Positions 41,309 through 44,425 of a DNA stretch of 64,000 bases are shown piece after piece. This DNA is from an uncultured Bacteroidota bacterium (GTDB taxonomy: Bacteria > Bacteroidota > Bacteroidia > Flavobacteriales > Flavobacteriaceae). The stretch's first letter is position 1; each line of letters opens with the position of its first letter. Made by a program: the position numbers and the translations under genes. The notes under the pieces were generated by a model. The model did not search any database. It saw only the letters and a list, made by a program, of their open reading frames with translations, and was not told the DNA's origin. The stretch covers positions 1 through 64,000 of the forward strand of contig CAIWKX010000115.1 of the NCBI GenBank assembly GCA_903913315.1, written 5' to 3'.

Positions 41309-41336
41309 ATGCCTCGAAATTTTCGGGGCATTTTTA
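41309..41336 (+). terminator. Intrinsic terminator
   Basis: atgcctcgaaattttcggggcattttta. Confidence 0.7.
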
Positions 41337-41352
41337 TTTACATTAACAATAC

Positions 41353-41372
41353 GGACAAGTCGCGACTTGTCC
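41353..41372. repeat. Perfect 20-bp palindrome GGACAAGTCGCGACTTGTCC
   Basis: Self-complementary over all 20 nt. Confidence 0.97.
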
Positions 41373-41392
41373 CTAACAACACAACAATTACA

Positions 41393-43291
41393 ATGAGTGA
41401 CGCAATCAAACACGAATGTGGAATTGCACTTTTACGATTAAAGAAACCGTTAGCGTTTTACAAACAAAAATACGGTTCGGCTTTCTACGGAATACAGAAA
41501 ATGTATCTCTTAATGGAAAAACAACACAACCGTGGACAAGACGGCGCTGGTTTTGCTTCCATTAAATTAGATGTGGAACCCGGAGAACGATACATCAGTC
41601 GAGTGCGTTCTAATGATGCACAAGCGATCCAAGATGTCTTCAAGCAAATCAACGAACGCATCAACGAAGAAATGGCTTCTCATCCGGAATATGCTGATGA
41701 TGTAGCTGCTCAAAAAGCAAACATCCCCTATATTGGAGAATTATTTTTAGGGCATGTTCGTTATGGAACTTTTGGTAAAAATAGTATTGAAAGTGTGCAT
41801 CCATTTTTACGTCAAAACAATTGGATGCATCGAAATCTGATTGTTGCGGGAAACTTCAACATGACCAATGTTACCGAGCTTTTCAATAGTTTAGTAGAAT
41901 TAGGGCAACATCCAAAAGAAATGGCAGATACGGTAACCGTAATGGAAAAAATCGGACATTTTTTGGATGATGAGGTTACCGATTTGTATCACGAATGTAA
42001 ATTGAATGGATTATCAAAAAGAGAAGCTTCTCCTGTTATTGCTGAAAAACTGCAAATTGCTAAAATATTAAAAAGAGCTTCCAAAGGGTGGGATGGTGGT
42101 TATGCTATGGCTGGACTTTTTGGTCATGGTGATGCCTTTGTGTTTCGTGATCCTGCGGGAATTCGTCCAGCTTATTTCTATGAAGATGATGAAATTGTTG
42201 TTGTAGCTTCGGAAAGACCCGTTATTCAAACCGTATTCAATGTTCCATTTGAAAAAGTGCAAGAATTGCAACCCGGAAATGCTTTAATCATTAAGAAGAA
42301 CGGAAACGTTACCGAAGAAGAAATAATTGTACCCACTATTAAAAAAGCATGTTCTTTTGAAAGAATTTATTTTTCACGAGGAAGCGATGCCGAAATTTAT
42401 CAAGAGCGAAAAAATTTAGGAAAATTAATTCTTCCAGCTGTTCTCGAATCTATTGGAGATGATACTGATAATACTGTTTTCTCTTATATACCAAATACTG
42501 CGGAAACCTCCTTTTATGGAATGGTAGAAGCAGCACAAGATTTTTTAAATCAAAGAAAAAATCAATTTATTTTAAATAATAGAAAAACATTAACCAAAGA
42601 AAAATTAGAAGAAATACTTTCGGTTAAAATTAGAACTGAGAAAATCGCTATTAAGGACGCCAAACTAAGGACATTTATTACGGATGATAAAAACCGTGAT
42701 GAATTGGTAGCCCATGTTTATGATGTAACCTATGGAGTTATCAAACCAACTGATAATTTAGTGATTATTGATGATAGCATTGTTCGTGGGACTACATTAA
42801 AAATGAGTATCATTAAAATGATGGATCGATTGAATCCTAAGCGAATAGTTGTTGTTTCCTCGGCACCACAAATTCGATATCCAGATTGTTATGGTATTGA
42901 CATGGCAAAGTTGGAAGGACTAGTTGCCTTTCAAGCAGCAATTGAACTTTTAAAAGAGCAAAATCGCTATCATATTGTTGATGAAGTTTATAAAAAATGT
43001 AAAGCTCAAGAGAAGTTAAAAGACTCGGATGTAGTTAATTACGTTACAGAAATATATTCGCCATTTAGCGATACAGACATTTCCAATAAAATAGCGGAAT
43101 TACTAACTTCTGAAAGTATAAAAGCAGAAGTAAAAATTATTTTTCAATCTGTTGCTAACCTTCATATTGCTTGTCCGAAGAATTTAGGAGATTGGTACTT
43201 CACAGGTGACTATCCAACACCTGGAGGAAACCGAGTTGTAAACCGAGCATTTATGAATTTTTATGAAGGAAAAGATGCTAGAGCCTACTAA
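41393..43291 (+). CDS. Amidophosphoribosyltransferase-like protein (class II glutamine amidotransferase + PRTase)
   Basis: KHECGIALL, HNRGQDGAGFAS, GHVRYGTFG; VIIDDSIVRGTTLK PRPP motif; start at 41393 preferred over 41309, which lies in a terminator. Confidence 0.88.
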   Translation: MSDAIKHECGIALLRLKKPLAFYKQKYGSAFYGIQKMYLLMEKQHNRGQDGAGFASIKLDVEPGERYISRVRSNDAQAIQDVFKQINERINEEMASHPEYADDVAAQKANIPYIGELFLGHVRYGTFGKNSIESVHPFLRQNNWMHRNLIVAGNFNMTNVTELFNSLVELGQHPKEMADTVTVMEKIGHFLDDEVTDLYHECKLNGLSKREASPVIAEKLQIAKILKRASKGWDGGYAMAGLFGHGDAFVFRDPAGIRPAYFYEDDEIVVVASERPVIQTVFNVPFEKVQELQPGNALIIKKNGNVTEEEIIVPTIKKACSFERIYFSRGSDAEIYQERKNLGKLILPAVLESIGDDTDNTVFSYIPNTAETSFYGMVEAAQDFLNQRKNQFILNNRKTLTKEKLEEILSVKIRTEKIAIKDAKLRTFITDDKNRDELVAHVYDVTYGVIKPTDNLVIIDDSIVRGTTLKMSIIKMMDRLNPKRIVVVSSAPQIRYPDCYGIDMAKLEGLVAFQAAIELLKEQNRYHIVDEVYKKCKAQEKLKDSDVVNYVTEIYSPFSDTDISNKIAELLTSESIKAEVKIIFQSVANLHIACPKNLGDWYFTGDYPTPGGNRVVNRAFMNFYEGKDARAY

Positions 43292-43345
43292 AAATTAACA
43301 TTTTATGTAGTTTATCGATTATTGGTGTAATTCATCAATATTATT

Positions 43346-43376
43346 TTGTAACTAAATACAAGTCAGTATATCTTTG
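43346..43376 (+). promoter_or_regulatory. Promoter of sRNA candidate A (TTG-N20-TATCTTTG)
   Basis: TTG 43346-43348; TATCTTTG 43369-43376. Confidence 0.65.
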
Positions 43377-43380
43377 GAGA

Positions 43381-43451
43381 ACCATAGCATTAGTAGGTTA
43401 AGTTTATGGTAGATTTGGGGCAAAAAAGGTGAAAGAAATTTCACCTTTTTT
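43381..43451 (+). ncRNA. Candidate small RNA A (about 71 nt)
   Basis: 4 nt after -7 box; ACCATA/TATGGT 5' pairing; conserved 37-nt core; 13-bp terminator stem aaaaaaggtgaaa-gaaa-tttcacctttttt. Confidence 0.7.
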
Positions 43452-43553
43452 ATTTTCTATAAGTTCCACTTTCAAAATGGCGAATTCTACCCTCATTTGA
43501 CTATCATCCCAATATATTTCTCAATTTTTAAGATTATAAAACCACCATACTAT

Positions 43554-43561
43554 TATGTTTG
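43554..43561 (+). promoter_or_regulatory. -7 box of sRNA candidate B (TATGTTTG)
   Basis: TATGTTTG 4 nt before ACCATA; no good TTG -33 seen. Confidence 0.5.
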
Positions 43562-43565
43562 CAGT

Positions 43566-43640
43566 ACCATAGGATTTAGTAGGTTAAGTTTATGGTAGAT
43601 TTGGGGCAAAAAGGCGTTCGCAACCGCGGACGTCTTTTTA
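43566..43640 (+). ncRNA. Candidate small RNA B (about 74 nt), sibling of A
   Basis: Identical 37-nt core; 14-pair terminator stem aaaaaggcgttcgc-aacc-gcggacgtcttttt (2 G-U pairs). Confidence 0.7.
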
Positions 43641-43706: not shown

Positions 43707-44312
43707 TTATTTAGCTTCGTTATATCTTCTAGACACTTCTGTCCAATTGATTACATTAAAGAAAGCTTCGATATAATCGGGACGACGATTTTGATAATGT
43801 AAGTAGTAGGCATGTTCCCAAACATCCATTCCTAAAATTGGAGTTCCTCCACAACCAATACCAGGCATTAAAGTATTGTCTTGATTTGGCGTTCCACAAA
43901 CTTCTAATTTACCATCTTTTATACAAAGCCAAGCCCAACCCGAACCAAATTGAGTAGCACCAGCTTTTGCAAAAGAAGCTTTGAATTCGTCAAACGAACC
44001 AAAATCTTTTTCAATAGCCGCTAATAATTCACCAGTAGGTAATCCACCACCGTTTGGAGACATTACAGTCCAGAACAAATTATGGTTAAAAAACCCACCA
44101 CCATTATTTCTAACAGCTGCTTTAGTCATATCTAAATTTTTTAGAATTTCTTCAATAGATTTTCCTTCCAAATCTGTTCCTGCAATTGCTGCATTCAAGT
44201 TAGTTGTATAAGCATTATGATGTTTTGAATGGTGAATTTCCATTGTTCTTGCATCAATATGTGGTTCTAACGCATCGTAAGCGTAAGGTAATTGCGGTAA
44301 TTCAAATGCCAT
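43707..44312 (-). CDS. Superoxide dismutase (Fe/Mn)
   Basis: [55 protein letters not shown]. Confidence 0.96.
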
Positions 44313-44425
44313 GATATTTTTGTTTAAGTTATTACTAAAATTGATTTCAAATTTATACATTTATCTTTGTAAAAGAAAATACTTTTTTTACATAATTCCA
44401 TTGAAAAAACCTATTATAGAGCTAA

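Follow-up and report, generated by a model that had tools for sequence, protein, structure and literature searches.

The intergenic region between a purF-like amidophosphoribosyltransferase gene and a superoxide dismutase gene in this Flavobacteriaceae genome carries two units with the same short sequence at their centre, raising the question of what these units are and why this sequence has been retained. The interpretation considered probable here is that they represent a LytTR-activated array in which short genes for trans-acting sRNAs are repeated in tandem, constituting a core feature of the Flavobacteriaceae.

Architecture of the two units

The purF-like gene (41309..43291, plus strand) is the conserved upstream neighbour of the units in the window, that is, the whole 64-kb stretch of DNA that was analysed. 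The Fe/Mn superoxide dismutase gene, sod (43707..44360, minus strand), lies on the other side; as it is convergent, the units cannot be the leader of the gene that follows them. The first-pass annotation had described two plus-strand units 185 bp apart, each consisting of a -7 box, a gap of exactly 4 nt, ACCATA, an identical 37-nt core and an intrinsic terminator. This layout is borne out in full, with the putative starts at the ACCATA motifs of 43381 and 43566, exact copies of the core at 43390..43426 (copy A) and 43576..43612 (copy B), and the boxes TATCTTTG (43369..43376) and TATGTTTG (43554..43561) at the specified distance. The predicted sRNA of copy A (43381..43451) is approximately 71 nt long, with a best family-model match of 98 bits, while that of copy B (43566..43639, the end being approximate) is approximately 74 nt long and matches at 75 bits (E = 1.3e-13); both are on the plus strand, as are all the elements described below. 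The start is assigned to the A of ACCATA because the TAnnTTTG promoter box of F. psychrophilum is located at -12 to -5 (PMC9723704), the position then occupied by the sigma-A type box of copy A. A -33 element, TTTG (43345..43348), can also be recognised upstream of copy A from the family logo. A core search of the whole genome found copies A and B to be the only two, and dinucleotide-preserving shuffles set the chance level for the 37-nt core at zero matches with up to three mismatches.

Each unit is predicted to fold into a 5' hairpin, followed by the unpaired sequence AGAUUUGGGGC(AAA) and then a strong terminator. The pairing of ACCATA with TATGGT that had been noted earlier is available in both copies, joining 43381-43386 to 43405-43410 in copy A (hairpin 43381..43410) and 43566-43571 to 43591-43596 in copy B (hairpin 43566..43596). 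Downstream of the hairpin is a candidate seed or protein-binding site, which in copy A is AGATTTGGGGCAAA (43411..43424), unpaired until the terminator stem begins at 43422 and nearly invariant family-wide, and in copy B is AGATTTGGGGC (43597..43607), unpaired in the fold and likewise conserved in the family. The terminators are both intact despite stems that differ wholly in sequence, again as originally observed: that of copy A (43422..43451) is of the ggtgaaa type with 13 pairs, and that of copy B (43608..43639) of the ggcgttcgc type with 14. Both copies fold better than 200 of 200 shuffled sequences (z = -3.9 for A and -5.1 for B). Taken alone, the 5' stem of copy A has a weak folding energy (z = -0.4), and it is the comparison with relatives, which exhibit compensatory changes in this hairpin, rather than folding energy that supports it.

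Distribution and conservation in the Flavobacteriaceae

The core, allowing up to three mismatches, is present in 149 of 200 Flavobacterium genomes at one to six copies each, against none for a reversed control pattern. A covariance-model search, proposed in the first-pass annotation as a check, was performed with a model built from 32 units; it matched 248 of 301 Flavobacteriaceae genomes, representing 199 of 237 genera, at one to seven copies. Named carriers are Winogradskyella, Algibacter, Lacinutrix, Psychroserpens, Gelidibacter, Salegentibacter and Xanthomarina. Diverged copies are present in many of the Flavobacterium genomes without a match in the first search, and in one diverged clade the core reads ...TTTTTACGGTATTTTTGGGGGC at the same position. 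At the purF locus of a Flavobacterium clade (L222-L228), the diverged core is GTAAATTAATTTTTACGGTATTTTTGGGGGC, and a GTAAA-TTTAC inner stem takes the place of the ACCAT stem. In the 2.05 Mb region of genome G173 (L221), a small gene close to sod is flanked by further diverged units, TATAGGTTAGAGTTATGGTGAATTTGGGGC, with no purF in the examined stretch. Order- and class-level searches outside the Flavobacteriaceae returned weak matches at most, with no PurF in the three that were examined. The best class-level match, which lies outside the order (G705:C83:30365-30430; 40 bits, E = 1.7e-5), could reflect either distant relatedness or a binning error.

The position of the array is also conserved. 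At 204 loci the first unit is found downstream of purF and in the same orientation, at a median distance of 101 nt from the stop codon, with sod present at 183 of these; the median spacing of tandem units is 224 nt. Using a simple stem-plus-T-run test, no separate terminator could be detected between purF and the first unit at 202 of the 204 loci, hence the terminator of the first unit, terminator A in the window, probably also ends purF. A few copies have no purF in the examined stretch, some of them with the operator still present. Two Hanstruepera loci (L113 and L194) retain the core and terminator with no purF in the stretch examined, such that a second locus is possible in some genomes. 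At L035-L062 and similar loci in other genera, the purF-proximal copy carries TTCATGG and a TAnnTTAG box, and later copies carry TTTATGG and TAnnTTTG; the occurrence of two subtypes within one array suggests a division of labour. A recurring stretch, TTTATTGGAATAAAGTC, is often found directly after the terminator (L014, L019, L022 and others).

The complete unit of promoter, ACCATA hairpin, core and terminator is found in approximately 200 genera, and the core is not found as a scattered repeat detached from promoter and terminator, the pattern that had been named as evidence against a pair of duplicated sRNAs with a conserved core; that proposal is therefore supported. An identical 30-nt core is shared by 279 of about 480 units (records rather than independent genomes, with some loci counted twice), near-invariance that contrasts with an identity of only about 70% between genera in the PurF protein. 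In the family logo, TAnnTTTG is placed exactly 4 nt upstream of ACCAT. The contrast between a conserved core and variable terminator stems, initially drawn from the two copies, extends across the family, in which the stems change with compensation: 30 cells are changed on both sides, compared with 10.5 in shuffles, and none of 500 shuffles reaches 30. For the 5' stem, ACCAU-AUGGU, the 24 variants include two double changes that are compensatory, as well as several wobble changes, and pairing is 93%, as against 51% or less when the partner is slid; the covariation support for this stem is modest, most rows being identical there. An alternative CCA-UGG pairing of the G-run shows no covariation. 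By sequence, the units thus have the attributes of trans-acting sRNAs: a promoter of their own, no ORF, an intrinsic terminator and an intergenic location other than that of a leader.

Predicted control and mode of action

Alignment of the upstream regions reveals conservation of the segment from -53 to -41, and a wider view shows a second copy, giving a direct repeat of GCAnTT(C/T)(A/G)TC upstream of the promoters, for most units with a spacing of exactly 20 bp between its copies. Of 352 units, 248 have their best second match at precisely this distance upstream, and in about 30% it is elsewhere; the mean score of the second match is 4.6 at 20 bp, compared with -14 or lower at every other. 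The half-site consensus is TTGCAGTTCATCTAA for the proximal and ATGCATTTAATCGAA for the distal position. Upstream of copy A, the distal half-site GTAGTTTATCGAT (43307..43319) and, 20 bp from it, the proximal half-site GTAATTCATCAAT (43327..43339) form the top-scoring double site of the entire window, with a score of 21.2. Copy B has kept its promoter box, core and terminator but lost a good operator, retaining only a degenerate counterpart, TCATTTGACTATC and TATATTTCTCAAT (43493..43525), the score of the proximal half being 10.0 at copy A and -7.7 here. The 20-bp direct-repeat operator and its degenerate version at copy B, together with the family-wide distribution and the purF-sod synteny, are additions to the first-pass annotation.

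LytTR regulators bind direct or inverse repeats of 9-11 nt separated by spacers of 11-13 nt, an example being the GGCATTTCAT repeat bound by E. coli YpdB (PMC4847170), while AlgR binds CCGTTCGTC (PMC4064291). The period of 20 bp fits a 9-nt repeat with an 11-nt spacer upstream of a promoter, as in the definition of a LytTR site, and the operator consensus matches the YpdB site at 8 of 10 positions, a level equalled by 0.3-0.6% of shuffled consensuses. Judged by motif and spacing, the binder would be a LytTR protein, and the units look like two-component-controlled sibling sRNAs with a LytTR-type operator. The genome containing the window has eight LytTR matches, none of which is linked to the sRNA locus. 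AraC-type regulators can also bind direct repeats approximately 21 bp, or about two helical turns, apart, and a protein of another class, such as an AraC/HTCS-type regulator, might bind the upstream repeat with the remainder of the model unaffected. This is an unlikely but serious alternative; the resemblance of the half-site to those of both YpdB and AlgR, and the presence of LytTR regulators in the genome of the window, argue against it. Double sites elsewhere in the related genome G171 do not define a clear regulon. Further intergenic LytTR-like double sites occur in G171 at 549663, 2043070, 879164 and 740661, shortly upstream of genes that by eye encode an outer-membrane-type protein, a carbohydrate-binding-type protein, a peptidase and a histidine kinase, which are possible regulon members.

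In the favoured model, a LytTR-type response regulator of a two-component system would bind the double direct repeat at approximately -74 to -41, its copies 20 bp apart, and activate the sigma-A promoter (TAnnTTTG). Each unit would then give rise to an RNA of about 71 nt beginning with ACCAUA and comprising a 5' hairpin, the single-stranded segment AGAUUUGGGGCAAA and the intrinsic terminator, which in the first unit would double as the terminator of purF. Tandem copies would raise the dose of one common sequence, and this would most likely use UUUGGGGC to base-pair with target mRNAs. Function probably resides in the invariant unpaired AGAUUUGGGGCAAA, and GGGGCAAA is its putative base-pairing seed. 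Target prediction from the unpaired region, which had also been proposed previously, was less fruitful, as seed and duplex scans found no convincing mRNA targets. In a duplex scan of 2.4 Mb of G171, the seed outperforms shuffled seeds, and there is no enrichment at translation starts relative to other gene positions; several of the best TTTGCCCC sites in this genome overlap TAnnTTTG-like -7 boxes. Over 61 genomes, TTTGCCCCAAAT has approximately 95 matches outside the arrays compared with approximately 43 for the reversed pattern, which contains a CpG and is hence a biased control. The sole attractive target candidate, a TonB-dependent receptor, was discarded, as no conserved site was seen among the matches listed.

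Other functions have to be weighed against base pairing. The RNAs could be real but mainly protein-binding, serving as a sponge or scaffold for, say, an RRM-type RNA-binding protein that would recognise GGGG/AGGUUAA, the extent of titration being determined by copy number. Such a role would account for the near-invariance of the whole 37 nt including the loop and stem, which is more than a short seed requires, and is compatible with the lack of target enrichment and with tandem copies, which suit titration; furthermore, the Bacteroides protein RbpB binds a multicopy sRNA family (PMC11697453). It is nevertheless rather improbable, because a sponge would be expected to carry more than a single GGGG motif per RNA and a fully unpaired stretch ahead of a terminator is typical of base-pairing sRNAs. 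The near-constant placement of the first unit after purF, where it provides the sole recognisable terminator at 202 of 204 loci, would be expected if the unit were a duplicated purF termination region, or an RNA derived from the purF 3'UTR, with no independent regulatory role. However, a mere terminator has no need of a conserved core, a TAnnTTTG box or a double operator, the additional copies each keep their promoter, and the operator is still found with some copies that have no purF in the locus, making this very improbable. Least credible is a tiny peptide starting at the ATGG of the core: ATGGTAGATTTGGGGCAAA can be read as an open frame in the majority of copies, but these have no shared stop codon and are invariant at synonymous positions, and natural variants gain or lose a base between ATGG and GGGG, shifting the frame, or replace the ATG with ACG or GTG. 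These frame-breaking variants lead to the rejection of this reading, and agree with the earlier statement that no ORF explains the units.

To our knowledge, sRNA regulation in Bacteroidota beyond the gut Bacteroides is almost unexplored, and the element described here is strikingly conserved and easy to find. If the proposed model is correct, an sRNA common to the family would be available together with a prediction of what regulates it, and F. johnsoniae and other laboratory strains would permit direct tests of the two-component signal, its RNA output and the targets. Rfam could gain a new family, for which the model, copies and variants already exist, and the Flavobacteriaceae a model of a LytTR operator. 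The fullest version of this proposal envisages a purF-anchored, LytTR-driven, dose-multiplied core regulatory RNA with a G-rich active segment, conserved in some 200 genera and absent from RNA family records, in hosts largely without Shine-Dalgarno-based initiation; it is advanced tentatively, as something a little short of an even prospect.

Comparison with known RNA families and systems

No Rfam 15 family matches the window at its gathering score, the similarities to STnc40, sraA and other Rfam families being chance matches driven by the terminator, and no named sRNA family common to the Flavobacteriaceae was found among the papers searched. The most similar RNAs within the phylum are FopS/GibS of the Bacteroidaceae (RF04319, PMC11697453), which are likewise multicopy paralogous sRNAs of approximately 70 nt with a shared conserved segment and a terminator, and with which there is a scattered AUUAG..AGGUUAA..AGAUU resemblance in a sub-threshold alignment. 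The units score 17.7-21.5 bits with the FopS model, well below the curated cut-off of 56. When this model was applied to 17 whole genomes, nothing exceeded the cut-off and the array was never the best match, a weak listed match at the array being found in G173 only and the best matches lying elsewhere in the genomes. FopS consists of a single-stranded 5' part with the R1 seed, followed by the terminator (PMC11697453), whereas here the unpaired stretch comes after a conserved 5' hairpin, and the GGGGC motif and single syntenic array are further differences. FopS is the nearest kind within the phylum, but the units fall outside that family.

Within the genus Flavobacterium, Rfp18 of F. psychrophilum is a structured sRNA conserved across the genus, with a homologue expressed in F. 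columnare (PMC9723704). The units resemble it, and also Rfp13 and Rfp15, in being structured and Flavobacterium-wide, a comparison made by description. Rfp18 is said to pair via a third stem-loop (PMC9723704), whereas a single unit here has two hairpins; a longer transcript spanning several units is conceivable. The element may correspond to a transcript that has been detected before, Rfp18 or else Rfp13 or Rfp15, this too being a comparison by description only. With the same limit on the Rfp18 comparison, the element is well supported as a feature and is proposed as a new sRNA family.

More distant parallels exist for the predicted regulation. RNAIII, controlled by AgrA, and VR-RNA, controlled by VirR, are sRNAs activated by a LytTR regulator through a direct repeat, the type of operator that is predicted here too, but they occur in Firmicutes as single RNAs of greater length and unrelated sequence. 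LhrC in Listeria (controlled by LisR), the csRNAs of Streptococcus (CiaR) and Qrr in Vibrio (LuxO) are sets of nearly identical sRNAs that are frequently arranged in tandem, every member having a terminator and being under response-regulator control of its own. All three families are listed in PMC11697453. They belong to other phyla, have no sequence relation to the units and employ another operator and regulator class; what they share with the array as modelled here is the organisation of sibling sRNAs driven by a response regulator.
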